Shown: in pieces, positions 2,960 through 17,331 of the stretch
Layout of the letters: each line of letters starts with the position of its first letter
Position numbering within the stretch: position 1 is the first letter of the stretch
Origin: Blastococcus sp. CCUG 61487
Lineage (GTDB): Bacteria; Actinomycetota; Actinomycetes; Mycobacteriales; Geodermatophilaceae
Assembly: GCF_005222955.1 (NCBI RefSeq)
Contig: NZ_LWUA01000263.1
Span: 1 to 53,095 of the forward strand
DNA length: 53,095 nucleotides
Direction: 5' to 3'
Program-made: the position numbers and the translations under genes
The notes under the pieces: model-generated
Seen by the model: the letters and a program-made list of their open reading frames with translations, nothing else
What the model was told of the DNA's origin: nothing
The model's database searches: none

Positions 2960-4077
2960 ATGGCACCGGCCGAGCCGCTGACCCTCTTCGATCTCGAGTC
3001 ACCACCCGCTCCCGCACCGCCGAACCGGCTGCTGCAGGTGCGCCGCATCTACGCCGAGCCGGCGGCCCTCGGCAGCCCGCGCGGCCGGCAGGTGCTCGGC
3101 CGCTTCCCCGACGCCGAGGTCGTCGAGGTGCCGTCGCACTGGCAGATCCCGGACCTGCACGGCAACGAGGGCAACGTCGAGCGCTGGGTGCGGGTGAAGA
3201 CCGAGACGCTGGTGCTCGGGGTGAAGAAGTCGCTGTCCGCCCGGCCCAACGGCCGCTCGGCCGACTTCATCGCGCCCTCGACGGCCAACGGGTGCGCGAT
3301 GGCGTCGCCTACTGCTACGTCCCCCGGAGGAAGGGCTACGCGAACCCGATCACGGTCTTCACCAACATCGAGCAGATCACCGGCTACCTGCGCCGCCACG
3401 CGATCCGGCAGGGGCCCAAGCCGGCCCCGAACCAGGTGGACCCGGACAGCTGGGTCTACGACCTCGGCGAGAACAGCGACTGCTCGGTCGACGCGCTGGT
3501 GAGCGACAACGTGGCCGACCTGGTCGCCACCTTCCGCGAGCTGCCGACGGCGAAGGCGTCCTTCGCCACCAAGTACGTCAACCGGCGGCTGCTCGACCTG
3601 GATCCGGCCGGCCGCACCCGGATCCGGTTCTCCGTCATGCCCGAGGACGACGCGCACCTGCCCGACGTGCGCACCAGCCGGGTGGCCGAGCGGATCGCCG
3701 CCGTCGACGACTTCGTGGCCGCCGGCTACGAGGTGCACCTCAACCTCTCCCCCGTCGTCCTCCGCGACGGCTGGGAGGCCGACTGGGGTGCGTTGTTACA
3801 GCGACTGGACGACGAGCTCTCCCCCGCGACCAAGGCGCAGGCCGCCCCCGAGGTCATCCTGCTGACGCACAACCGCGGGCTGCACGAGGTGAACCTCGGC
3901 TGGCACCCGCAGGCGGAGGAGGTGCTGTGGCGGCCCGACCTGCAGCAGGCCAAGCGCAGCCAGAACGGGCAGGACAACGTCCGCTACCGCACCGACGTCA
4001 AGCGTGACGGAGTACAGCGACTGCACCGACTGGTCGAGCGCCATGCCCCGTGGCTCCGCGTCCGGTACGCCTTCTGA
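2960..4077 (+). pseudogene. Spore photoproduct lyase family radical SAM protein, frameshifted
   Basis: Two reading frames together encode a full-length spore-photoproduct-lyase-like protein of about 372 residues. The first frame (2960 to about 3305) ends in FIAPSTANGCAMA; the second (from about 3306) continues AYCYVPRRKGYANPITVFTN and runs to 4077. Adding one base between 3305 and 3306 restores CAMACAYC, the CxxxCxxC motif that would bind the radical-SAM 4Fe-4S cluster. The family repairs or acts on DNA photoproducts or has unknown substrates in non-sporulating actinobacteria. Both parts remain well conserved, so the break is recent or a sequencing error. The ATG at 2960 is preferred; an upstream in-frame start at 2876 exists. 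Confidence 0.85.
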
Positions 4078-4199
4078 GGCCACCCGCCGACGTGCTGGAA
4101 ACCCGGCTCCCACTTCCCTCGCACCCCTTCAAATGGTCACCGTTGGTGTGACAAGGTCGTACAGGTAGTGATCGATCGATGGCCGAGGGAGCACGCACG

Positions 4200-5864
4200 A
4201 TGGACCTCGGACATCTGTCGGCGGTGCCGCCGGAGCACCTCCTGGACGCGCTGCCGGTCGCCGTCGTCGTCGCCGACGACCAGGGCCGGATCACCTACGC
4301 CAACCCGGCCATCCGCACGCTGCTCGGCCACGATCCCGCGTTGCTGATCGGCCGGTCGCTCACGAAGTCGCTGCCGCAGCGCTTCCAGCCCAGCGGGAAC
4401 GGCACGACGCTGCGCCCGCAGAGCGTCGGCCAGGGCGAGCTGCTCGGTCGCACCACGCAGCTGCCGGTGCTGCACGCCGACGGGCACGAAGTGGTCGTCG
4501 ACCTCACGCTGGCCCGGCTCGACGCCGCCCCCGGCAAGCCGGCCGACCAGCGCTCGATCGTGTGCGTGCTGCGCGATGCCAGCGCCACGATCCTGCTCGA
4601 GCGCCAACTGCAGGTCAGCCGCTACCTGACCGCGACCCTCCGGGTCACCACCGCGCTCACCGAGGCCGCCGACGCCGACGTCGCCTTCCAGCGCGTGCTG
4701 CCCACCCTCTGCACCGAGCTGGACTGGGACGCCGCGGTGCTGTGGGAGACCGACGACCACAGCGGCCGCCTGGTGCACGCCGGCACCTGGACCGCGCCCG
4801 GCGAGGAGGTCGCCGCCCTGCGCAGCGAGACCCGCCGCACCTTCGGTCGGGGCGAGGGGCTGCCCGGCCTCGTGCGGGCCGGGCGGGCGCCGGTCGTCAT
4901 CGAGGACCTCTGGACCGATCCGCGGTTCCTCCGCGGGGCGGCGGCTGGTGCCGACGACGTGCGCACCGGCGTGGCCTTCCCGGTGCTGCACGGCGAGTCG
5001 GTGCTGGGCGTGTGCGAGCTGTTCTCCCACGAGCAGCGCACGGTGCCACCCGAACTGGTCGAGGTGCTCGCGCACGCCGGCCGGCAGATCGGGCAGTTCC
5101 TCGGCCGGTTGCGGGCCGAGTCCGAGGTCCGGGGGCTCGCGGAGACGCTGCAGCGCTCCCTGCTTCCCTCGCACCTGCCGACGGTGCCCGGCGTCGACCT
5201 GGCCGCGCACTACCGGGCCGGCGGCGGCTCGGCGCTGGTGGGCGGCGACACCTACGACGTCATGCCGCTGCCCGACGGCCGCTGGATGGCGCTCGTCGCC
5301 GACGTGTGCGGCACCGGTGCGGAGGCCGCCGCGCTCACCGCGCTGACCCGGCACACCGCGCGCGCCGCCTCGGCCGCCGGCTGCCCCGCCGCGGTGCTCG
5401 CGGCGATCAACACCGCGCTGCTGCACGAGCAGGCCACCGGCCCGCTGCGCTTCGTCACCGCCTGCTGCCTGGTGCTGGAGCGCGGCCCGCGCGGCCACCG
5501 CGTCGGCATCAGCATCGCCGGGCACCCCCCACCGCTGCTGCGCACCGCCGACGGCGCGGTCGTTGCGCTGGGCCGGCCCGCCGCGCCGCTGGGCGTCGAC
5601 CCGGACACCGTCTACTCCGCCCACCCCGTGGACCTGCCCGCCGGGAGCATGCTGCTGCTCTACACCGACGGGGTCACCGAGGCGCGGGACACCGCGGGCG
5701 AGCAGTTCGGCGAGGACGCGCTGCAGGAGCTGCTGCGGCACGATCGCTGCGCCGACGCCGAGGTGGCGGTCGCGGCCGTCGCGGCGGCCGTCGAGGACCA
5801 GGTGTCCGGCTCCCGGTACGAGGCCGACGACATGGCGCTGCTGGCCCTCGGCGTGCCCGGCTGA
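4200..5864 (+). CDS. PAS-GAF-PP2C (SpoIIE/RsbU-type) serine phosphatase
   Basis: A 554-residue sensor phosphatase. Residues about 10-125 form a PAS domain (LPVAVVVADDQGRITYANPAI), about 140-295 a GAF domain, and about 310-550 a PP2C/SpoIIE catalytic domain with metal-binding acidic residues in VGGDTYDVMPLPDG, DVCGTG, LLYTDGVTEARD and DDMALLALG. Such enzymes dephosphorylate anti-sigma-factor antagonists in partner-switching stress circuits; the partner is not in this window. The ATG at 4200 has GAGGGAG upstream; an in-frame ATG at 4179 is the alternative. Its stop and that of the convergent gene lie within the 18-bp perfect palindrome CCGGCTGAGCTCAGCCGG (5857-5874). Confidence 0.9.
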   Translation: MDLGHLSAVPPEHLLDALPVAVVVADDQGRITYANPAIRTLLGHDPALLIGRSLTKSLPQRFQPSGNGTTLRPQSVGQGELLGRTTQLPVLHADGHEVVVDLTLARLDAAPGKPADQRSIVCVLRDASATILLERQLQVSRYLTATLRVTTALTEAADADVAFQRVLPTLCTELDWDAAVLWETDDHSGRLVHAGTWTAPGEEVAALRSETRRTFGRGEGLPGLVRAGRAPVVIEDLWTDPRFLRGAAAGADDVRTGVAFPVLHGESVLGVCELFSHEQRTVPPELVEVLAHAGRQIGQFLGRLRAESEVRGLAETLQRSLLPSHLPTVPGVDLAAHYRAGGGSALVGGDTYDVMPLPDGRWMALVADVCGTGAEAAALTALTRHTARAASAAGCPAAVLAAINTALLHEQATGPLRFVTACCLVLERGPRGHRVGISIAGHPPPLLRTADGAVVALGRPAAPLGVDPDTVYSAHPVDLPAGSMLLLYTDGVTEARDTAGEQFGEDALQELLRHDRCADAEVAVAAVAAAVEDQVSGSRYEADDMALLALGVPG

Positions 5865-5866
5865 GC

Positions 5867-6562
5867 TCAGCCGGTCTGCCCGGTGTCGGCGTGCGCCACC
5901 CCGACCGGCTTGGACTCCGGCGAGCCCCGCTGGCGGAGGTAGACCGCGAAGATCGCCATCGAGCCGACCGCGAGCATCTCCGACTGCCAGTTCTGGAAGC
6001 TGCGATTCCAGAAATCGGCCTCGGCCAGATAACCCGCGAAGGTCACCGGGTCCTGTCGCTCACCCAGTTGCTCGCTGTTGAAGGCCACCCATCCGGTGAG
6101 CGCCGACGCCGCCCACGTCAGCAGGAACAACCCGCCCATGAGCAACCCGAGCGAGCGGGAGAACAGCGTCGTGCGCCAGCCGCCGGCTCCCGCCCAGGCC
6201 GGGGAGTCCGCGTGGGTGTGCTGCCCGACCCGCTGCTCCCGGTCCGATTCCGTGCCCTCCCGACCGGGCTCCTTCGACTCGCTGGAGCCCTTCTGGACCA
6301 GCCAGACCGTGGCGAAGATGTAGAGGAAGAACTGCAGGTACTCCGACTGCCAGTTCTCCATCACGTCGACCATGAACGACGACGAGGTGACGTAGTCGGC
6401 CAGGCTCATCCGCTCCAGCCCGTTCGCGACCTGGTCGGCGTTGACGTCGGCCACCCCGGAGAGCGCCTGGCCCACGAGCGTGACGAGGAACAGCCCACCG
6501 AAGGTCAGGCTGAGCGCGTTGGTGCGCAGGAAGCCGTAGCTCGGTTCGTCGACGCTGCTCAC
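5867..6562 (-). CDS. DUF6766-type membrane protein with internal duplication
   Basis: A 231-residue protein made of two related halves joined by a charged linker. Each half has a leading hydrophobic helix (FGGLFLVTLVGQALSG and MGGLFLLTWAASALTGW), then NWQSEYLQ or NWQSEMLA, a second helix, and QKGSSESKEP or QRGSPESKP. The pattern matches proteins labelled DUF6766; no function is established. The GTG at 6562 overlaps the stop of the small upstream gene in the arrangement GTGA, which points to translational coupling. It is the last gene of a three-gene minus-strand operon and converges with the PP2C phosphatase. Confidence 0.8.
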   Translation of the reverse strand: MSSVDEPSYGFLRTNALSLTFGGLFLVTLVGQALSGVADVNADQVANGLERMSLADYVTSSSFMVDVMENWQSEYLQFFLYIFATVWLVQKGSSESKEPGREGTESDREQRVGQHTHADSPAWAGAGGWRTTLFSRSLGLLMGGLFLLTWAASALTGWVAFNSEQLGERQDPVTFAGYLAEADFWNRSFQNWQSEMLAVGSMAIFAVYLRQRGSPESKPVGVAHADTGQTG

Positions 6563-6651
6563 CGGCCCAGCGCCCCCAGCGCGAAGGCGTAGGCGACGCC
6601 CATCAGGACGAGCACCAGGTAGGCGAGGAAGACGACCCGGACGCCGTTCAC
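6559..6651 (-). CDS. 30-residue single-helix membrane peptide
   Basis: A short frame from GTG 6651 to TGA 6559 encodes 30 residues: a short start (MNGVR), one hydrophobic helix (VVFLAYLVLVLMGVAYAFAL) and a small basic end. Both ends overlap neighbours by the sequence GTGA: its start overlaps the stop of the lipoprotein gene and its stop overlaps the start of the DUF6766-type gene. Two exact couplings and a coherent membrane helix argue that it is real. Function unknown; it may be a subunit or assembly factor for the membrane protein that follows. Confidence 0.6.
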   Translation of the reverse strand: MNGVRVVFLAYLVLVLMGVAYAFALGALGR

Positions 6652-7037
6652 GGCCCGTCCACCTCGCAGTCGTACGGCGCCTCGCCCCGCGGCTCGCACG
6701 CCGCTGCGGTGATCCGCCACCCGGCACCGGTGTCGGTCAGGAACAGAACGTCATCGCCGACCCGCACCTGCGCCTCCCCGCTCCAGACCTCGACCGCCGA
6801 CACCCCGCCGTCCGGCAGCGCCACCTCGCCGATCGCGTCGGGACACGGCGCCGACGCCTCGAACTCGAGCGCCGCCAGGGTCGCCGGGGCCAGGAGAGCG
6901 CAGCGCGCCTCCTCGGCCGTCCCGGGGTCGGCGAAGGTGGCCACCACCGCGCGCACCTCGTCGTCCGACGCCCCGGCGCAACCGGCCAGCGCCGCCGTCG
7001 CGCCGGCGGCGGCGCACCACGTCCTCACCGAGCCCAC
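6648..7037 (-). CDS. Small secreted lipoprotein of unknown function
   Basis: A 129-residue protein with a lipoprotein signal: hydrophobic stretch then lipobox LAGC with the cysteine at residue 20. The mature part has a DEVRAVVATFADPGTAEEARCALL segment and a beta-rich C-terminus (AEVWSG-like EVWSGEAQVRVGDDVLFLTD, GWRITAAAC), resembling small NTF2/SnoaL-like or Mce-associated lipoproteins; this family guess is weak. The GTG at 7037 has GAGGAGG a few bases upstream. It is the first gene of the operon with the 30-residue peptide and the duplicated membrane protein, and is divergent from crtI. Confidence 0.7.
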   Translation of the reverse strand: MGSVRTWCAAAGATAALAGCAGASDDEVRAVVATFADPGTAEEARCALLAPATLAALEFEASAPCPDAIGEVALPDGGVSAVEVWSGEAQVRVGDDVLFLTDTGAGWRITAAACEPRGEAPYDCEVDGP

Positions 7038-7150
7038 GACACCTCCTCGAAGGGGGCGCCGGCCTGCTGCTCGACCGGACCCCGGGAGCGCTACCCCCCT
7101 CGATCGCGCGGGCAAACGATCACCACCCGACCGGGCGGTGCCGGCCCGGC

Positions 7151-7162: not shown

Positions 7163-8665
7163 GTGGCGCGGGTGGTGGTCGTGGGCGCCGGGCTCGGCGG
7201 GCTGGCCGCCGCCGCGAGGCTGGGCGCGCTCGGTCATCGGGTGACGGTGCTGGAGCAGGCCGCGGAGATCGGCGGCAAGCTGGGACGCGCCGAGCTCGAC
7301 GGCCACGTCTTCGACACCGGCCCGAGCCTGGTGACCCTGCCGCAGATCCAGCGCGACCTGTTCGCCGCCACCGGGGCTCCGCTGGAGGCCGCTCTGGACC
7401 TGGTCCGGCTCGACCCGGCGGTCGCCTACCGGTTCGCCGACGGGACCCGGCTGTCGATGCCCGGGACGCCGGACGCGGTGCCCACGGCACTGGACGCCGC
7501 GCTCCGGGACGGTGCGGGCGCCCAGTGGGCGGCACTGATGGCCCGGGCCGAGCGGATGTGGGCGGTCAGCGAGAGGCCGTTCCTGCGCAGCCCGCTGGCC
7601 GGTGCGGGCACGCTCGCCCGGCTGGCCCGCCGTCCGGCCGACGTCGCGACCGTCGCGCCGTGGCGCTCGCTGCGCGGCCTCGGGGAGAGCTACCTGCGGC
7701 ATCCGCACCTGCGCACGCTGCTCGACCGCTACGCCACCTACTCCGGGTCCGACCCGCGGCGCGCGCCGGCGGTGCTGGCCACGGTGCCGTACGCCGAGCA
7801 GGCGTTCGGCTCCTGGTACGTGCGCGGCGGGTTGCGCCGGCTGGCGACGGCGGTGGCCGAGCGGGCGGCGGCGCACGGGGCGGAGCTGCGCACCGGCTGC
7901 GCGGTGCGCCGGGTGCTGGTCGACGGCGGTCGGGCGAGCGGCGTCGAACTGGCCGACGGCGAGGTGGTGCCGGCCGACGTCGTCGTCTCCGGGGTGGACG
8001 CCGAGGCGCTGTACGCCGATCTGCTCCCGGCGGGCGGCGAGGCCGACCGGGCCCGTCGGAACCTGGCCCGGGCGACGCCGTCGCTGTCCGGGTTCGTGCT
8101 GCTGCTGGGGCTGCGCGGCCGCACGCCCGGCCTGGCCCACCACACCGTGCTGTTCCCCGCCGACTACGACGCGGAGTTCGACGCCGTCTTCGGGACCGGG
8201 CGCGACGAGGGCCGCCCGCGACCGGTGCCCGACCCGACCGTGTACATCAGCGCGCCCGACGACCCGGAGCTGCGTCCGGACGAGGACAGCGAATCGTGGT
8301 TCGTGCTGGTCAACGCCCCCCGGCACGACCCCGTGCGCGGCGTCGACTGGGACGAGCCGGGCTTGGCGGAGCGGTACGCCGAGACGGTGCTGCGGGTGAT
8401 GGCCGGCCGCGGCCTCGACGTCCGCGACCGCATCCGGGTGCGGGCCGTACGCACCCCGGCGGATCTGGAGCGCGACACCGGCAGCGTCGGCGGCTCGATC
8501 TACGGGACGTCGAGCAACGGCGCGCGGGCGGCGTTCCTCCGGCCCGCCAACGCCTCCCCCGTCCCCGGCCTGTTCCTGGTGGGCGGCTCGGCGCACCCCG
8601 GCGGCGGGCTGCCGCTGGTCACCCTCTCCGCCGAGATCGTCTCCGGACTCGTCAGCTCCACGTGA
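7163..8665 (+). CDS. crtI: Phytoene desaturase family FAD-dependent oxidoreductase (CrtI-like)
   Basis: A 500-residue flavoprotein. The N-terminal dinucleotide motif VVVGAGLGGLAAAARLGALGHRVTVLEQ binds FAD; DTGPSLVTLP follows as in CrtI enzymes; the C-terminus has GLFLVGGSAHPGGGLPLVTLSAEI, the second FAD contact. CrtI enzymes insert double bonds into phytoene in carotenoid synthesis, and CrtN/CrtO-type relatives act on other carotenoids, so the exact substrate is uncertain. No crtB or crtE lies nearby. The GTG start follows a leaderless-type promoter. Its TGA overlaps the ATG of the decayed GMC fragment. Confidence 0.85.
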   Translation: MARVVVVGAGLGGLAAAARLGALGHRVTVLEQAAEIGGKLGRAELDGHVFDTGPSLVTLPQIQRDLFAATGAPLEAALDLVRLDPAVAYRFADGTRLSMPGTPDAVPTALDAALRDGAGAQWAALMARAERMWAVSERPFLRSPLAGAGTLARLARRPADVATVAPWRSLRGLGESYLRHPHLRTLLDRYATYSGSDPRRAPAVLATVPYAEQAFGSWYVRGGLRRLATAVAERAAAHGAELRTGCAVRRVLVDGGRASGVELADGEVVPADVVVSGVDAEALYADLLPAGGEADRARRNLARATPSLSGFVLLLGLRGRTPGLAHHTVLFPADYDAEFDAVFGTGRDEGRPRPVPDPTVYISAPDDPELRPDEDSESWFVLVNAPRHDPVRGVDWDEPGLAERYAETVLRVMAGRGLDVRDRIRVRAVRTPADLERDTGSVGGSIYGTSSNGARAAFLRPANASPVPGLFLVGGSAHPGGGLPLVTLSAEIVSGLVSST

Positions 8666-9187: not shown

Positions 9188-9427
9188 TTATTCGTAGACA
9201 GCCGCGGCGAACAGCAGTTCAGCAACTAGGCGCCAGGCCTTCTCGGGGAGAGTGGCATATGCGGCTAAGGGGCCTGATCCGGCATCAACCACGAACGCTT
9301 GCATTTGCTCTAGAAAGTCATCCAGAGACGCGATTGCATGCACAGCGTCGTCTGCCCGTAGTTGCCCGAGAAAGTTGGCCAATGACTGGGCGTCTGACAC
9401 GTTTCTAATAGCGTCGTCTATCTCCAT
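9188..9427 (-). CDS. Candidate immunity protein of the Rhs toxin
   Basis: A 79-residue acidic, helical protein that starts MEIDDAIRNVSDAQSLANFL and ends EKAWRLVAELLFAAAVYE. The ending pattern W..vAelL.AA..YE resembles small proteins annotated as DUF7660-type immunity proteins, but this is a tentative match. Its ATG at 9427 lies inside the last codons of the toxin gene, with GGAAGGAG eight bases upstream, also inside the toxin gene, so it is translated from the same message right after the toxin. Size, acidity, position and lower GC are all typical of an immunity gene cognate to the preceding C-terminal toxin. Confidence 0.75.
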   Translation of the reverse strand: MEIDDAIRNVSDAQSLANFLGQLRADDAVHAIASLDDFLEQMQAFVVDAGSGPLAAYATLPEKAWRLVAELLFAAAVYE

Positions 9428-12400
9428 CGAATACTCCTTCCACCGTTACGCGTCGTGAACTTTCGTGTCCATTCGCGGGCAACTTCTCGCTTCGTTGCCA
9501 TTCGATAGGGCATCATCACACCAGCCTGCTTGAATGCCCCCAGGCGTCGATTGTCCAATGAGTAAAGGGTTCCCCCGCGATTCACCAGCCTAACGGCTGG
9601 TACCGACCCAGGACTAATCTTTCCCGATCGAAGGCCCGCCGCCAATCCGGCTACAGACTGGCCATCTCTGAACGTCTTCTTTGCGCTGGATTGCGTGTAC
9701 CGAACCACAGCGGGATCGATCACCTGACACGACGAGTTGTGGACCAGCGTGCCAACCTGGTGGCTGCCAACGAGGTACGTATGCACGTTGGCAACTGCGA
9801 GGTTGTAGACGGTTCGGCCGGCTACCCACCCGTAGTCGACCACGTTGGTAATGACCAGGGGCACCCCGGTGGCACCAATGGTCGCGTCTCCGACCCGAAG
9901 GTCTTGGGCGTCGGTCCAGCCAGGCCCTTCGACCCAGATGGGGTGGTTCGCCGTGGCGATCCACGTGTCACTGCCTGGGAGGTCTTCCGTGCGGCCATCG
10001 CTGGAAGGTGCCCGAGCGGTGGTGACTTCGATGAGATGCTTGTCCCCACGACCCACAATGACGTTAAGAACGGGTTGAGCGGTGAGCTCGCCCGTGAGGG
10101 GGTGCCTGGCAGCAACCAAGTCACCGACCTGAACGTCGCTGATTGGTCGAGTGGTTCCGTCGGTCATAAGCACAGCCGTCTCCGGCGTGAAGCTGTTGCA
10201 TTTACTCAGCTTGTTGACCGAGGCCCCGATCTTGGATGCAACGCGACCGCCGGCTCGTGCGGCTGCGAAGCCGGCCTTGGCGGCCGCCCCACCACCCGGA
10301 ACCATCGCGGCGGCTGCGACGACGCCCATCTCAAAGGCTTTCCTCTTGTTGCCGGTCGCCGCGTAGGCGCCGGCGGAGATTGCTCCCGCCGCTGCTCCGA
10401 TGGGCCCGGGAACCACGGTGGCCACGACTTCGGAGACCTTGGCGACCTTCTTCATGGCCTTCTTGAGGATCTTGGGCATCCCCCACTGGCCGTCGAGGTC
10501 GACGCAATTGACCGGGTCGCCGGAGCAGTAGTCGTAGGCCGTCGCGTTGCCGCCCGGTGAGGGGTCGCGGGACCAGAACCGGCCGGTGGCCGGGTCGTAG
10601 AGCCGCACCCCCATGAGCAGCACGCCGGCAAGTGCGTCGGCCGAGCGCTGCTTGCCGCCCAACCAGCCGTACCGGCCGTCCTTGGCGGGCGCCTGGCCGG
10701 CGGTGACGATCCGCCCGCCGATGTTGGACCCTTGGGTGTTCAGGTCGGTCAGGTTGCCGAACTCGTCGGCGGTCTGATGCCTCAGCCCCGTCCAGTCGGC
10801 GGTGTTCTCGCCGTCCCGGATCGGCAGCGTCGTCATCACACTGCCGTGCAGGTCGATTAGCTGCAGGACCTGATCGCCGTCCTTGCCGGTCTGCATGGCC
10901 AAGTTGCCGTCCAGGCCGTCGACATAGCGGGTGATCTCGTCCGGCAGCGACGCGTCCTCTGCGATCCACGCCGGGGAGTCCGAATCGGAGTCGTAGTGGT
11001 TGACCTTGGTGACCGCCTCCTGCCAGCCGGCCACCCCGTCACCGCCGACCGCCCACGCCTGATTGGTATAGGAGGCGAACCGGCCGATCGCATCCAGCGT
11101 CCAGGTCTGGCGGGCGACGCCGTCGATCGTCTGGGAGGCGATCAGGTCGTTGGCGTAGTACGCATTCGCCACGCTCACGCCCGGAGAGCCACGTACCGGC
11201 GCAGTCGTAATGCGACCGAGCGGGTCGTACACCCACGGGCCCCCGTCGACCACGGACTCCGACAGGAGCCGGTCGGCCGAGTCATAGGCGTAGCTGTTGG
11301 TCATCAGTGCAACCGATCCGGGGTCGGCCGGGTCCACGCAGGTACCCGTGTCCGACACCGCCGTCGCCAACGACAGCCGGTTCCCTCGGGCGTCGTATGT
11401 GTACTTGCGGGCGGCGCACACCGACGTACCGCCGATGTTGTCCTGCGCGTCGGTCAGGCGACCCAGGGCGTCATAGATGTAGCGCTTGCTCGCCGCGTTC
11501 GTGACGTGGGTGACCATCTGCCCGGAGCTGTTCTCCAGCGCGGCCGACGAGGAGATGACCGCGCCGTCCGACGTGCGCACGTAGCTGCGCGAGATCGGCG
11601 TGCGGTTGGCGTCATAGCCGATCCGCAGCTCCACCCCGCCGGGCAGCGACTGCTCCGTCACCTGTCCGCCGGGGCCGTAGGAAGCGGTGATGTCACCGCC
11701 CACGGAGTCGGTGACCTTCGTGACAAACCCGCGGGGCTCCTCGGTGCGGTCGTAGGTGAACTCCGTCCACCCTGTGTCGTCGGTGACCCTCGTCGGCTTG
11801 CCGTACTGATCGAAGACGCTGGTGGTGGTGCCACCGTTGCCGTCCTCGTACTCGGTCATGCGGCCGAGCTGATCGAAGGTCTTCCGGATCGTCGACGTCA
11901 CCGTGCCGGTGACCGGGTCTTGCCCTTCGATCGTGGTGACGTCACCGGTCCCAGCGTCGTAGAGGTTGACCGTCTTGAAGACCGGTACACCGGCGCCGTC
12001 ACCCGACGCAGCGATCGAGACGGACATGACGCGATCGGCGGCGTCGTACTCCGTGACCGTGGTGCGGGACTGCGTCGTCGTAGCGCCGTTGACCGGGCCG
12101 GTGGCCGACTCGGTCACCGAGACGATCGACCCATGCCGGTTGTAGGCGGTGACGTGCTTGACCGGCAGCTCGCTGGCCATCCGAGCGGGGTCGTGGCCGG
12201 TGACGGGCCCGGCCACGTAGTTCATGCACGGCAGGCCGGCGTACGCAGGCTTGTTGCCGCACTCCGCTCTCTGCGGGTTCGGCCCGGCGCTGTAGTAGAC
12301 GGCGATGTTGGTGCGCGCGTCGGTGCCGTTGGCGCCGATGCCGCGCGACTCGACCGCCTTGCCCTGCGCGTCGTACCGGACGAACGCCGACAGGTTGGCA

Positions 12401-15400
12401 CCGGTGGCGTCGAAGGTGGTCACGGTCGGCTGACCGATCTTCCATCCCGAGGTCGGCCCGATGGGTGACTGCCCGTCGATCGGGTTGTAGCCCATCGTCG
12501 TCACTTCGACGTCCACGAGCTGCTCTGGACTTGACCCGGCGATCAGCAAGGCCTCGGTCTGCGTGGTGGCCAGGTGGTAGGCCACACCGTCGGGCTTACC
12601 CTCGTCGTATGCGTAGGTAGTCAGGTCGTGGACGAGGTGGACGTTGGTCGGGTCGTTGCCGACCGCCAGCTTCACGAGCGGCCCGCGGGACCGGAGGAGA
12701 TCCAGTCCCTCCGGCCCGTACGTGGACAGGCTGGAGAGTGCGACCGCCCGGGCCGCCGTGTCGGCCTCACTCAGGCCCAGTGCTTCCAGGTCCACGGCCG
12801 CCGTTGGCATCTGTCCGAGGGCCAGCAGCCGGTTGGTGGCATCGAGGGACCGGACGACGTTCCCGTACTGGTCGTACTCCGCGGTGTCGATGTAGCCGGC
12901 CACCGGAGCATCCGGCCCGGACGGCGTCGCCGAGTTCACTTCACGGCCGGACGCATCTAGGTAGTGCACGACCGCGGACTTGTAGCCGTCCGGTCCGGGT
13001 GCCGTTGCCGTCGCGGTGGTCAGGCCGGGCGGGTTCTCCGGGCCGAAGATCGCGGTGGCGTCCGTGGGCCCGTACCGCTGCGCCCAGGTGGCGATCGTGT
13101 CGGGGTCGAGGTCGTAGGGGCCACCGGCCGAGCGGGTGATCGGTACGTTGTAGACGACACTGCTGGTGGTGTCCGGGCCGACCTGAGCAACGGTGCCGGG
13201 CACCAGGGAGGCTCGCGAGACGGTGCGGAGCCGGCCGGAGCTGCGGTCGATCAGGTCACCGGCACCGACCGTCGAATTGGCGCCGCCGGTGCCGTAGACG
13301 AACGTCCACGGAAGCTCCCCGGGCGGGGCGAGCGTGATCACTCGTCCGTCGGCGTCGTACTCGTAGCTGGTCTTCAGCGCCGGGGTGATGCGCGGGTCCC
13401 AGACCTCGCGGAGGCGGCCCTGGGTGTCGTAGGCGTACAGCACGGCGTCGACCGCCTCGGTCTGCGTCGCGGTCGCCGACGGCGACGACAACAGCCGGAC
13501 CTTGGACAGTTGATCGCCGTAGGCGCCGAAACTCGACGAGGTTGCTGTCGTTCCGGTCGCGTAGACGAGCTCGAGGACCTCGCAGCCGACCGCCGGGTCG
13601 GCGCCGGTGCAGGCACCAGGGTTGTGGGGCCAGCTATCGACGCCCGGCTCGACCGGAGCGATCATCCGGGCCAGCCGCACCCGGCCATTCACCTGCTCGT
13701 ACACCAGTCTGGTCTGCCCCGATGCGACCGGAGGCGCAGTGGTGACCAAAGCCGAATCGAGCGCTGCCGGCTGACGGGCGAAGTCACTGACGGTGCCGTC
13801 GAGTTCGGTCAGCCGCCAAGTGCCAGGTCCGGTGGACGCGAGACGCAATCCCTCCGCTCCAGGCTCCGGCAGCCAGTTCGCGCCACCTCCGGTGAACCAG
13901 ATCTCGTCCCCGCCGGACAGGTGCAGGGTGGCGACGTCGGGGTAGGGCTGGCTGATCCGGGTGTAGGCGGTGCCGGTGGCGTGATCTGCGGTGCCCAGCG
14001 ACCACTGGCGGCCCAACGGGGCCCAGACCTCACGGACCGAGAGGTCGTCGAAGAAGACCTCCGTTCCGGTCGTGGAAAAGCCGTTGTAGAGCTTGACGTG
14101 AGGAGAGTTCGCCGAGGCCGGCAGCGCGACGTCGTAGCTGAGGTGCTGCCAGACGTCGGTCGCAGTTGCCTTCGGGGACGGGATCTCGTTCCACTTCCCC
14201 GCGTCGTGGTAGGTGGTGACCAGGCCGATGCCCAGGGAGCTCGCCGGCTGGAGCCCAGTAGCCGCCGGAACGTAGATCCATCCGCTGACCCGATAGGTGC
14301 GGCCTGGCTGCATGCCAATGAGGCCGCCGTCGGGTGCGACCGCCCAGGCGTAGCTGATGCTGGTGCCCCCCGTTGGGACGACGCGCAGCGAGTCGCCGCC
14401 TCCGTGTCCCCGCGTGGTCACGCGCGAGAAGGAAGCGCCGTCGGGTCTGTATCCGTCAGCCGAGGCGATCGTCTGCTGGGCGCTGGTCAGGCGATCCGCC
14501 TGCAGCTCGTACCCTGCGTCGACGTCGCGGCTGGAAGTCGTTCGTTCGATGGAGAGGCCGAACTCGTCGATGTCGGTGCTCGAGAGCCGGTAGTCGCCGG
14601 TGAGCAAGTTGACGGTGCCGGGGCCGATGGAGTCGGTGGCGGCGTTCTGCGCGTCCGGAGAGACGGTGACCGTCACCCATGGCGTGGAATATGCCCCAGT
14701 GCCCTGATCGTCCTCCGCCAGGATCGCCTGCACCTGAACGGGTCCGGGAACGTGACCCAGCGTCAAGCCGGCGTCCCAGGTCGCGTAATCCCCGAGGACG
14801 CTCAGCTCGCTCCACTGGCTGGTGACCGATCCGCCGTTCGAACGGGTCAGCGCGGCGAGGTCGATGTCCTGGCTGGGTGTATCGGGGCCGCGACGCCACA
14901 CGAACTTGACGTGGGAGAACGCCGCCTCCCCCTTGACCGCCAGACGGACCCGGCGGACCACCTGCGAGCCTTCGATGGGTGAGACCAGCGCCCCGCGGCC
15001 TACGTAGAAGACGTGACTCACGACTGGGGACAGGTTCCCGGCCTTGTCGACCGACCTCACCTGCAGCACGTGTCGACCATTGGTCGGCGGAGTCACCGAC
15101 AAGGTGGTGCTGCCGGAGGCCGCCAGTCGCGTGTCCGGTGTCTTGTCGAGCGCCCAGTCGAATCCGGCGAGGCCGGGATCGACCGCCGGCATCGTCAACG
15201 TGAACGTGCCAGCCTCGTGCTCTGCCTTGTGCCACCCGCCGTCACTGGGGTAATCCGTCGACGACACGATCGGCGCAGCCGGCGCCTGGGAGTCGATCGT
15301 GATCATGGGGGTGAAACCCGTGTTCTGCCGGTTCCACTCGATGCCGTCGTGCGAGTGGGCGACGAACTTGTACGACTTCCCGTCGTGCATGACGCCCGCA

Positions 15401-17331
15401 GGAACTTGCACGCCCGTCGTCCAGCCGACGGGCATAGGAGGAGCCCACCCTTCCCAGACGATGCCGGCGTTGTGCTCGTAGAGCTGGAAGAAGACGCTGA
15501 CCGTCCCCTCGCCGTCGATGTCCACCGTGTTCACGGTGAGCTCAGGCGTGGTGGTCGGTGACCAGTAGGTCGTGCCGTCGAACGTCGCGCTGCCGTACCT
15601 GGGGTTGGCGGCCGCGCCCGGGGGCGTGTTCCAGTGGATCCAGAGGCTGGGGACGACGTACGGCGAGTTGGCCGAGGTGAACTTCTTCCACCCCTCGTTT
15701 CGGCTCTCGTTCGTAGCCTTGAGACCGAGCCCGACGTGGCCCGCGCCCGCGTTCGACCAGCCCTGGATCATCGAGGTGAGGTCCGCCGAGACCCAGCCCT
15801 GCCCGCAAGCTCCGGAACCGAGCGTTTCCCACGAGGCTGCCCTGGGCGCACCCCAGAACGGCTGGGCGTAGATCCGCGTGTTGTGGTCGGCCGCGAAGGT
15901 GTCCCACACCTGCCACTCTGTCGGGGCGCAGGACCAGGAGTGGAAGTTCCACAGATCCAGGCGTGCGTTGAGGATCGTCTTGTAACGGATTCCTGAGAGA
16001 TCCAGGTTGATGAACGAGCGGGCGACGGTCCACCCGCCGTCGTAGGTACCGATCCGCAGCTCGGGACTACCGGACTGGTCGCTGTTGAACCCGTGCTGCA
16101 CCCACGTGTCGAAGCCGTAGATCCACTGCCACTCCGGATCCACCACGACCGGGTACTCGGTCGCCGGGTCCTGGAGGAAGGCGGCGTCCGGACTGAGGGA
16201 CAGCTCGACCACCCCGGGTGCGACCACCGCGGCCGCCGTCTCCAGCGGCAGCGCGGTACTCGCCTTGGCCTCGGCAGCCTTCTCAGACGCGACCTGTCCG
16301 GCGTCTTCTCCCGGCTCGACCGGGGAGTTGTGGGGCAGGGGCGGAACGGTCGAGGGCGCTGGGAAAGGGGGAACGTCGGAGCCCGGCAGAGGAACAGACG
16401 GCGGCGTCGACGGCTGTGCACCTGCCGGAGTGACCTTCCACTCCGGCTGCGGGGAGAGCCCTCCCTCGGGTGCATCATCGGCACGTTCCCACGGTCGAGT
16501 GATGGGATTGAGCCGCTCCAGGTCGACAGCCGCATCCCAGACGAGCGGAGTCGCGGACGAGCCGATGACCTCTCCGGCGCCGTCGGTGTACTGCACACCA
16601 CCGCCAGGCGTCGGTGCCGCCGTCACCCCGTCCCCCACGACAGTGAGGGACAGGTCGAGCGGTGCGTCATCAGCAGGCCGCTCCTTCACCACGAAGAACT
16701 GCTCGTAGCCGGTGCGCGTCGCCTCGATGACCAGGTTCAGGCCAGGCCGTACGTCCTCGTAGACGGCCCGTGGCCCCTCCAGCTGCGGTGCCGGCAGATC
16801 CCCCCTCCAGGCGAGACTCACGGTCTCCTCGGTCTCACCCGTCATCGAGACGAGGACGCCCTGTTCAGGCGCTTGCTCGCCGGCGAGCTGCAGATCGATG
16901 ACGTGCGCCTTCGGGCGGACCGACCCGTCATCGGCCACCTCGAGGGTGAGGTCGACCGGAGTCCAGTCGGCTGATGACGTGCCGTCGCCCGTGTCAGTCG
17001 GCACCCAGATGGGCCCGGATGCCTGCCCGGTCGTCATGGTGCCGTCGGGCAACGCGAAGGTGGACGACGTCACCGTCCGCTCCCCGACGACCTCCACCCG
17101 TTCGTTCTCGAGTCGGGCGATGGTCTTGGCCGTGGGGATGTCAGGCGCCTCGAGCACACCCTCCGGCGTGCGGGTCGGCTCCTCCTGAGCGGGCGGCGTC
17201 TGCACCGGCGCCGCCTGCGCACCCGTGGCCATGAGCACCATCTCGGCGAGCAGCGCGCCGCTCAGCGCGATGACGAGGACGCCCCTCGCACGCCACTTGG
17301 AAACAGGGCTGGAACCGTGACGTGGGGACAC
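9418..17331 (-). CDS. Secreted YD-repeat/Rhs polymorphic toxin with HINT domain
   Basis: A 2637-residue secreted toxin. Residues 1-40 are a signal peptide (hydrophobic VLVIALSGALLAEMVLMATG, cleavage after AQA). About 394-570 is a DNRLRE-like domain (PVVVDPEWQW, RSFINLDLSG, GQGWVSADLTSMIQGW). About 575-910 holds Ig-like and linker segments; about 1300-2260 holds YD repeats, closing with FWSRDPSPGGNATAYDYCSG and DPVNCVDLDGQWG. A HINT autoprotease follows, from Cys2378 (CNSFTPETAVLMTDG) through NHPIWVEG to LVHN2532, predicting cleavage before Ser2533. The released 105-residue toxin contains LYSLDNRRLGAFKQAGV, which recalls the ParB/sulfiredoxin-like fold. The immunity gene overlaps its 3' end. 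Codon bias weakens from about 9700 down, a sign of exchange of the toxin tip. Start: ATG 17331, needed for the signal peptide. Confidence 0.9.
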   Translation of the reverse strand: MSPRHGSSPVSKWRARGVLVIALSGALLAEMVLMATGAQAAPVQTPPAQEEPTRTPEGVLEAPDIPTAKTIARLENERVEVVGERTVTSSTFALPDGTMTTGQASGPIWVPTDTGDGTSSADWTPVDLTLEVADDGSVRPKAHVIDLQLAGEQAPEQGVLVSMTGETEETVSLAWRGDLPAPQLEGPRAVYEDVRPGLNLVIEATRTGYEQFFVVKERPADDAPLDLSLTVVGDGVTAAPTPGGGVQYTDGAGEVIGSSATPLVWDAAVDLERLNPITRPWERADDAPEGGLSPQPEWKVTPAGAQPSTPPSVPLPGSDVPPFPAPSTVPPLPHNSPVEPGEDAGQVASEKAAEAKASTALPLETAAAVVAPGVVELSLSPDAAFLQDPATEYPVVVDPEWQWIYGFDTWVQHGFNSDQSGSPELRIGTYDGGWTVARSFINLDLSGIRYKTILNARLDLWNFHSWSCAPTEWQVWDTFAADHNTRIYAQPFWGAPRAASWETLGSGACGQGWVSADLTSMIQGWSNAGAGHVGLGLKATNESRNEGWKKFTSANSPYVVPSLWIHWNTPPGAAANPRYGSATFDGTTYWSPTTTPELTVNTVDIDGEGTVSVFFQLYEHNAGIVWEGWAPPMPVGWTTGVQVPAGVMHDGKSYKFVAHSHDGIEWNRQNTGFTPMITIDSQAPAAPIVSSTDYPSDGGWHKAEHEAGTFTLTMPAVDPGLAGFDWALDKTPDTRLAASGSTTLSVTPPTNGRHVLQVRSVDKAGNLSPVVSHVFYVGRGALVSPIEGSQVVRRVRLAVKGEAAFSHVKFVWRRGPDTPSQDIDLAALTRSNGGSVTSQWSELSVLGDYATWDAGLTLGHVPGPVQVQAILAEDDQGTGAYSTPWVTVTVSPDAQNAATDSIGPGTVNLLTGDYRLSSTDIDEFGLSIERTTSSRDVDAGYELQADRLTSAQQTIASADGYRPDGASFSRVTTRGHGGGDSLRVVPTGGTSISYAWAVAPDGGLIGMQPGRTYRVSGWIYVPAATGLQPASSLGIGLVTTYHDAGKWNEIPSPKATATDVWQHLSYDVALPASANSPHVKLYNGFSTTGTEVFFDDLSVREVWAPLGRQWSLGTADHATGTAYTRISQPYPDVATLHLSGGDEIWFTGGGANWLPEPGAEGLRLASTGPGTWRLTELDGTVSDFARQPAALDSALVTTAPPVASGQTRLVYEQVNGRVRLARMIAPVEPGVDSWPHNPGACTGADPAVGCEVLELVYATGTTATSSSFGAYGDQLSKVRLLSSPSATATQTEAVDAVLYAYDTQGRLREVWDPRITPALKTSYEYDADGRVITLAPPGELPWTFVYGTGGANSTVGAGDLIDRSSGRLRTVSRASLVPGTVAQVGPDTTSSVVYNVPITRSAGGPYDLDPDTIATWAQRYGPTDATAIFGPENPPGLTTATATAPGPDGYKSAVVHYLDASGREVNSATPSGPDAPVAGYIDTAEYDQYGNVVRSLDATNRLLALGQMPTAAVDLEALGLSEADTAARAVALSSLSTYGPEGLDLLRSRGPLVKLAVGNDPTNVHLVHDLTTYAYDEGKPDGVAYHLATTQTEALLIAGSSPEQLVDVEVTTMGYNPIDGQSPIGPTSGWKIGQPTVTTFDATGANLSAFVRYDAQGKAVESRGIGANGTDARTNIAVYYSAGPNPQRAECGNKPAYAGLPCMNYVAGPVTGHDPARMASELPVKHVTAYNRHGSIVSVTESATGPVNGATTTQSRTTVTEYDAADRVMSVSIAASGDGAGVPVFKTVNLYDAGTGDVTTIEGQDPVTGTVTSTIRKTFDQLGRMTEYEDGNGGTTTSVFDQYGKPTRVTDDTGWTEFTYDRTEEPRGFVTKVTDSVGGDITASYGPGGQVTEQSLPGGVELRIGYDANRTPISRSYVRTSDGAVISSSAALENSSGQMVTHVTNAASKRYIYDALGRLTDAQDNIGGTSVCAARKYTYDARGNRLSLATAVSDTGTCVDPADPGSVALMTNSYAYDSADRLLSESVVDGGPWVYDPLGRITTAPVRGSPGVSVANAYYANDLIASQTIDGVARQTWTLDAIGRFASYTNQAWAVGGDGVAGWQEAVTKVNHYDSDSDSPAWIAEDASLPDEITRYVDGLDGNLAMQTGKDGDQVLQLIDLHGSVMTTLPIRDGENTADWTGLRHQTADEFGNLTDLNTQGSNIGGRIVTAGQAPAKDGRYGWLGGKQRSADALAGVLLMGVRLYDPATGRFWSRDPSPGGNATAYDYCSGDPVNCVDLDGQWGMPKILKKAMKKVAKVSEVVATVVPGPIGAAAGAISAGAYAATGNKRKAFEMGVVAAAAMVPGGGAAAKAGFAAARAGGRVASKIGASVNKLSKCNSFTPETAVLMTDGTTRPISDVQVGDLVAARHPLTGELTAQPVLNVIVGRGDKHLIEVTTARAPSSDGRTEDLPGSDTWIATANHPIWVEGPGWTDAQDLRVGDATIGATGVPLVITNVVDYGWVAGRTVYNLAVANVHTYLVGSHQVGTLVHNSSCQVIDPAVVRYTQSSAKKTFRDGQSVAGLAAGLRSGKISPGSVPAVRLVNRGGTLYSLDNRRLGAFKQAGVMMPYRMATKREVAREWTRKFTTRNGGRSIRWR

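Follow-up and report, generated by a model that had tools for sequence, protein, structure and literature searches.

What does a reading frame of 30 codons do when it is wedged between two longer genes and overlaps both of them? We addressed this question for a 53,095-nucleotide stretch of DNA from Blastococcus sp. CCUG 61487 (contig NZ_LWUA01000263.1, positions 1 to 53,095), hereafter the window. The earlier note on this DNA had pointed to a short frame with one hydrophobic segment, joined by GTGA overlaps to a lipoprotein gene upstream and to a gene for a membrane protein with two similar halves downstream. This description was confirmed in the sequence: the three genes lie on the minus strand with no intergenic space, and the halves of the downstream protein, a member of the DUF6766 family, share 38% identity over 78 columns (E 3e-10). 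The features of the locus are as follows.

7092 to 7117, minus strand: SigB/SigF-type promoter motif, GTTT-N17-GGGTA, with its end 54 nt upstream of GTG 7037
6648 to 7037, minus strand: lipoprotein gene, 129 aa, GTG 7037 to TGA 6648, lipobox LAGC, predicted NTF2-like domain
7028, minus strand: in-frame GTG, a possible start of the lipoprotein gene besides GTG 7037
6659 to 6665, minus strand: Shine-Dalgarno-like GAGGTGG, 7 nt before the small-gene GTG (read by eye)
6648 to 6651, minus strand: GTGA shared by the stop of the lipoprotein gene and the start of the small gene (read from the sequence)
6559 to 6651, minus strand: small gene, GTG 6651 to TGA 6559, 93 bp with stop, encoding a 30-aa single-helix membrane protein, VNGVRVVFLAYLVLVLMGVAYAFALGALGR
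6559 to 6562, minus strand: GTGA shared by the stop of the small gene and the start of the DUF6766 gene (read from the sequence)
5867 to 6562, minus strand: DUF6766 membrane protein, 231 aa, start GTG 6562, two similar halves

The reading that we favor, with a probability of roughly 0.6, is that this three-gene operon stands under a SigB/SigF-type stress promoter and builds a membrane complex with the DUF6766 protein as its core, the 30-residue protein as a one-helix subunit and the NTF2-like lipoprotein as a third member. The small protein would probably be a subunit of such a stress-induced envelope complex because its gene lies directly before the DUF6766 gene, and usually behind the lipoprotein gene, in many actinobacteria.

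We surveyed 80 DUF6766 loci of Actinomycetota from named genomes; a second set consisted of lipoprotein loci found in 20 genomes among 150 of the same order. Many of these loci come from close relatives, so the counts are not independent. Of the 100 loci in which DUF6766 was matched, the window being counted twice, 97 yielded a hit when a script searched for a short hydrophobic ORF directly before DUF6766. The three misses differ in kind. In L048 the small gene was recovered by profile search, in L019 only a DUF6766 fragment is present, and from L068 the small gene is truly absent. Counting the 78 loci found by the script together with L048, the small gene is present in 79 of the 80 loci, and a lipoprotein homologue in 75. 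The three-gene order that the earlier note had proposed to look for in relatives is thus found there. The note had also named the case that would speak against its reading, both neighbors kept and the small frame gone; this case turned up in one of the 75 two-neighbor loci of the 80-locus set (L068), to which the fragmentary order-set locus L019 may be added.

We considered whether the small ORF might be a chance product of GC-rich DNA. A hydrophobic ORF of 24 to 36 aa lies at the lipoprotein stop in 91/91 loci, a set that includes the window and is restricted to loci where the ORF script had succeeded (91/94 if L019, L048 and L068 are counted as misses), compared with 14 of 4,550 resampled sequences and 12 of 1,820 random positions, which rules this out. 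The predicted products are also uniform. Their length is 27 to 30 aa in 95 of the 97 picked relatives, the two others being Agrococcus frames that begin further upstream. The consensus is RxxFxxYLxxIxxGLAYxxxLGLxxR, and 54 sequences align without gaps apart from the N-terminus (54 of 93 distinct products, after exclusion of near copies and of the odd ones from L014, L017, L076 and L090). Across 197 close pairs, pN/pS is 0.54 in frame, and the two alternative frames give 1.33 and 1.34; for pairs that are further apart, with saturated sites, the ratio climbs to 0.78 and 0.94. Judged by these substitution patterns, selection is maintaining the reading frame of the small gene.

No Pfam or NCBIfam family matched the small protein of the window at E 0.1, and its gene is missing from the gene tables of all four Streptomyces plasmid records that we compared; these tables are incomplete, so the absence is indicative only. 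By profile, the same four records carry all three genes, and the lipoprotein is listed in three. One open-access library of papers yielded no small membrane protein with a lipoprotein of Geodermatophilaceae, nothing on DUF6766 or PF20554, and for MetS only papers on unrelated subjects. Our use of "undescribed" for the small family refers to this library and to the Pfam and NCBIfam profile searches. One genome outside the DUF6766 set (G090) gave a weak small-gene match (E 0.0021) inside a longer frame, which we counted as unrelated.

A 4-nt overlap of lipoprotein and small gene occurs in 55 of 73 loci from named genomes and in 8 of 17 loci of the order set, and a start giving a 4-nt overlap of small gene and DUF6766 is available in 68 of the 73 and in 12 of 15, respectively. 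Such tight overlaps at both joints, together with a hydrophobic product, are what one would expect if the small gene were mainly a translation coupler that brings ribosomes, and perhaps membrane-targeting machinery, to the DUF6766 start, its peptide having no lasting role; in L068, moreover, the DUF6766 start follows just behind the lipoprotein stop. We consider a pure coupler unlikely, given that the frame shows amino-acid selection, that the core is conserved and gap-free beyond the N-terminus in 54 sequences, and that solitary DUF6766 genes manage without any small gene. Furthermore, the small gene persists in eight loci in which no lipoprotein was detected, where the upstream gene differs or is further away. 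Its presence in these loci likewise rules out that it is mere filler between lipoprotein and DUF6766.

The distribution of the small gene points to DUF6766 as its partner. DUF6766 is found in 36 of the 150 genomes of the order, 16 with a full-length protein of a type that we call paired (the window's protein included), 12 with a full-length protein of a solitary type, and 8 with partial sequences that were left out of the paired and solitary counts. Also dropped before counting were L115-L125, with partial DUF6766, and L021 and L022, with no DUF6766 match. The two types separate by their score against the paired-type profile, with E values of 1e-107 or better in the paired group and of 1e-57 to 1e-66 in the other. 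The small gene lies beside 16/16 full-length paired-type and 0/12 full-length solitary-type DUF6766 genes, and it adjoins DUF6766 in 17 of the 18 order-set genomes with a small-gene match. By profile, both the small gene and the lipoprotein are absent from all 18 DUF6766 loci of Alphaproteobacteria, Deinococcus and Spirosoma. Within the actinobacteria of the order, solitary-type DUF6766 occurs in L191-L194, L196, L197, L199 and L201-L204, 10 of these 11 belonging to one family (f16). Four of these loci (L191, L192, L197, L203) have another hydrophobic ORF 88 to 127 nt before DUF6766, and L143 has a hydrophobic ORF of 23 aa 45 nt before it; none of these ORFs matches the small-gene profile.

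The same division appears in the DUF6766 proteins. In a tree of 62 sequences, a branch supported at 100/100 sets all 19 solitary proteins apart. Of the remaining 43, 34 have small gene and lipoprotein, 8 have the small gene alone (at least 4 changes) and 1, L068, has the lipoprotein alone. Position 72 is Q in 88/88 paired and E in 30/30 solitary proteins, position 78 is F in the paired type versus M in the solitary type, and position 187 is R versus E or Q. L068 retains the paired-type residues at 72, 78 and 187, and in this locus, at the least, the small gene is dispensable; the type-specific residues may reflect ancestry only. We also looked for a docking face on the second long helix, which holds 9 of the 28 type-specific sites (61, 65, 66, 72, 75, 78, 80, 86 and 87). 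Seven of the nine lie within a 140-degree arc, but so do those of 4,329 of 20,000 random draws, and we take this as no evidence for such a face.

Whether the small protein might instead serve the lipoprotein, as chaperone or anchor, with DUF6766 as a bystander, can be judged from the exceptions. The lipoprotein gene is directly upstream and overlaps the small gene in the majority of loci counted above, as such a helper would require. The lipoprotein is undetected, however, in L064, L074, L076, L081 and L090 of the 80-locus set and in L107, L108 and L111 of the phylum set, and all eight loci keep the small gene and DUF6766; the reverse, a lipoprotein kept with DUF6766 and the small gene gone, is seen in L068 alone. 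We therefore regard DUF6766 as the main partner of the small gene and a helper of the lipoprotein as very unlikely. The proposal of an envelope complex with an unannotated small subunit thus stands in part: the frame is conserved, under coding selection, unannotated and overlapping with both neighbors in most relatives, but the picture of two equal neighbors gives way to one in which the small protein, from its genomic distribution, belongs with DUF6766 and the lipoprotein is a loose member. In L074 and L081 (Thermocrispum), a SigB-like motif is separated from the small gene by other frames, which may represent a replacement first gene. In L048 (Pseudonocardia sp. CNS-004), the lipoprotein match at 3611-4008 is split over two frames, with the small gene and DUF6766 frames open.

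The best clue to function is a feature that was absent from the earlier account. The sequence GTTTGCCCGCGCGATCGAGGGGGGTA at 7117-7092 on the minus strand, 54 nt before the lipoprotein GTG, fits the consensus GTTT/GNNT-spacer-GGGTA, which we took from SigB-type promoters of Bacillus and Streptomyces as described in PMC8346170, and at the level of sequence it qualifies as a SigB/SigF-type promoter motif. The motif recurs in relatives. Of 82 lipoprotein genes, the window's included, 47 have its loose form, GNNT-N14-18-GGGTA, in the 200 nt before them, compared with 53 of 1,640 random windows and 6 of 82 antisense regions; the GTTT form is found in 24 of the 82 upstream regions, compared with 17 of 1,640 and 0 of 82. 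With the window excluded, and with families assigned from record titles, the loose form is present in 23/32 Geodermatophilaceae and 23/49 others (5/49 antisense in the others), and the GTTT form in 19/32 versus only 4/49. The motif lies within 250 nt in only three of the eight lipoprotein-less loci, always more than 200 nt away, and was found in 1 of 13 solitary actinobacterial DUF6766 loci examined.

In the window's own 4.1-Mb genome, GTTT-N14-18-GGGTA has 8 sites versus 3 for a reversed control, and the GTTTG version 4 versus 0. One of the 8 is followed, 52 nt downstream, by a possible start of a HATPase-domain gene (28.5 bits, cut-off 27.4) that is weakly RsbW-like. The frame after this gene has SigF/SigB-family sigma factors as its best profiles (E 1e-63), a match that stays below the curated cut-offs and covers only residues 78-242. 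The arrangement is:

1501 to 3005 of L148 (own genome, contig C30): motif, RsbW-like gene and SigB/SigF-like frame

Before such a pair is where the promoter of an autoregulated stress sigma factor would be expected. Of the other seven sites, one is the operon's own and one precedes a glycosyltransferase-like frame; the frames scanned behind the remaining sites had no Pfam match. Phosphatases of the PAS-GAF-SpoIIE type are known from SigB control, where they activate SigB-like sigma factors. A gene for a PAS-GAF-SpoIIE (PP2C) phosphatase occupies window positions 4179-5864 on the plus strand and converges on the operon, and another locus, L146, has a GAF-SpoIIE phosphatase nearby.

In a more modest account, stress regulation is all that the three genes share, and the small protein has the membrane or some other target to itself, without binding DUF6766. 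The evidence for association is all genomic, and a common promoter alone could hold unrelated stress genes together. What such an account leaves unexplained is that the small gene tracks one DUF6766 clade, in the paired and solitary types and in the genomes with a small-gene match alike, and we judge it unlikely. We infer both the stress regulation and the partnership of small gene and DUF6766, and favor their combination in one complex.

A second link to stress comes from the solitary DUF6766 genes of Alphaproteobacteria. An EcfG-type motif (GGAAC-spacer-GTT, as given in PMC6599016) lies upstream of 7/15 of these genes, compared with 21/1,337 random windows and 3/15 antisense regions. All seven matches are within 100 nt of the start used, only three of them end in exact CGTT, and 8/15 loci have no match. 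Stress-type neighbors, judged by eye without a control, are present in 5 of the 11 annotated loci among the 15: Ku, LigD and Hsp20; a ferritin-like protein; trehalose-6-phosphate synthase; and a general stress protein. With SigB/SigF-type motifs in actinobacteria and EcfG motifs in Alphaproteobacteria, two phyla with different stress sigma factors would thus both place DUF6766 under stress control. DUF6766 appears from these motifs to be under such control in both phyla, in the Alphaproteobacteria less clearly. Genes with hemerythrin domains were seen near DUF6766 on two Streptomyces plasmids and one Sphingobium plasmid (L126, L147 and L131).

Based on these observations, we tentatively put forward a broader proposal, to which we give somewhat less than even odds: that Actinomycetota and Alphaproteobacteria have in common an undescribed envelope complex with DUF6766 as its core, controlled in each by a stress sigma factor unrelated to that of the other, and that one actinobacterial branch, with fixed changes at 72, 78 and 187, adds to it a near-obligate one-helix subunit of 27-30 residues and the NTF2-like lipoprotein.

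The DUF6766 protein of the window matches PF20554 over nearly the whole profile (E 2.4e-94, 315.2 bits versus a cut-off of 27; residues 10-229 on profile positions 3-221 of 221). Its structural model (pLDDT 80, pTM 0.68) has four long helices, two per half, and in the window each half carries an NWQSE motif and a GSxESK motif. Sites common to paired and solitary proteins include, in the first half, E69, N70, W71, S73, E74, G92, S93, E95, S96 and K97 and, in the second, N191, W192, Q193, S194, E195, S214, E216, S217 and K218. The solitary proteins of Alphaproteobacteria, Deinococcus and some actinobacteria belong to the same family, with the same duplicated NW(Q/E)SE and GSxESK motifs and, in part of the Alphaproteobacteria, a likewise stress-related gene setting; unlike the paired ones, their first half carries NWESE where the paired type has NWQSE, they come without small gene or lipoprotein and, in Alphaproteobacteria, the motif upstream, where one is found, is of EcfG and not SigB type. 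Fold searches with the model returned a best Foldseek E of 2.8 and a best VIA-align Z of 7.6, the latter to a chain without evident relation, with mostly long-helix proteins among the others. These matches are unusable, and we draw no fold relation from them.

The lipoprotein of the window has a signal peptide with an LAGC lipobox, as bacterial lipoproteins do, and no Pfam or NCBIfam family at E 0.1. A script detected the lipobox in 83 of 90 relatives, the other seven having truncated or unclear N-termini or falling outside the filter. Cys20, the lipidation site, is invariant in 77 aligned sequences, all of them chosen for having a lipobox; Cys46, Cys65, Cys114 and Cys124 are invariant as well. 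Going by where these four fall in the model's elements, they would fit a pair of disulfides, 46-65 and 114-124. The AF2 model (pLDDT 88.7) aligns by VIA-align with NTF2-like chains at Z 7-9 (best 3rob_A, Z 9.2, rmsd 4.1, 95 aligned residues), values little above the usual background of the tool, and Foldseek returned nothing under E 0.001. Weak Pfam matches to DUF4440 and DUF4878 occur in 6/77 and 3/77 members, respectively. Searches of solved-structure sequences with the lipoprotein, small-protein and DUF6766 profiles gave no match.

How would these parts work together? In the mechanism that we envisage, DUF6766 would form the core from two repeats. Each repeat would comprise two transmembrane helices, with an invariant NW(Q/E)SE near the start of the second helix and a GSxESK behind it. 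The 30-residue protein would serve one DUF6766 clade in particular as a one-helix accessory subunit, made in step with its partner by stop-start coupling at GTGA or ATGA, and its helix would pack beside DUF6766. The lipoprotein would sit on the outside as an exported, lipid-anchored NTF2-like domain that caps the outer face, useful yet dispensable. The whole unit may protect or tune the envelope in general stress; our guess is that it is membrane-stabilizing or channel-like rather than an enzyme.

Small subunits of this kind have precedents. KdpF is a one-helix accessory protein of a transporter. PMC7267776 describes AcrZ in the same terms. Like both, the small protein has a single-helix form; unlike relatives of either, it has no detectable sequence relation to them. 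CydX, encoded in the operon cydABX, is the small subunit of cytochrome bd oxidase, has 37 aa in E. coli and is often unannotated; its presence follows one CydA clade with a distinct loop (PMC4325964). The parallel is that a short hydrophobic protein in the operon of a large membrane protein tracks one clade with a matching sequence difference. Unlike in CydX, the partner here is DUF6766 and not an oxidase, and the small gene is upstream of its partner and overlaps it. No family of CydX or KdpF type is among the Pfam hits of the 54 small-protein members at E 0.1, and no solved (PDB) chain matched the small protein at E 10. The model NF033493, a MetS-like NSS transporter small subunit, matches 3/54 relatives weakly (best E 0.0032) and the small protein of the window not at all at E 0.1; going by the model's name, the likeness lies in shortness, and the adjacent protein, unlike a transporter, matched only DUF6766. 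Length and a single hydrophobic helix are also reminiscent of type I-like toxins. A toxin would be extremely improbable in a co-directional, overlapping position within an operon that is conserved, partner included, in many families of actinobacteria. One-helix subunits coupled to membrane proteins are a known kind; the family, the partner and the stress setting are new.

These results add a conserved microprotein family that the annotations checked had missed, and they give DUF6766 a likely partner and a functional setting, the general stress response in two phyla. The paired and solitary clades offer a natural comparison for the gain of one-helix subunits. Confirmation of the promoter would make the function directly testable by deletion under drying, osmotic or oxidative stress.

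Further genes flank the operon in the window. A gene for a phytoene desaturase family protein of CrtI/CrtD type (7163-8665, plus strand) is divergent from it. Beyond this gene lies one for an RHS-like repeat protein of 2,637 aa (9418-17331, minus strand), whose C-terminal part looks by eye like a Hint/intein region with a short tail. It is followed by a 79-aa frame (9188-9427, minus strand) that, again by eye, could be an immunity gene.
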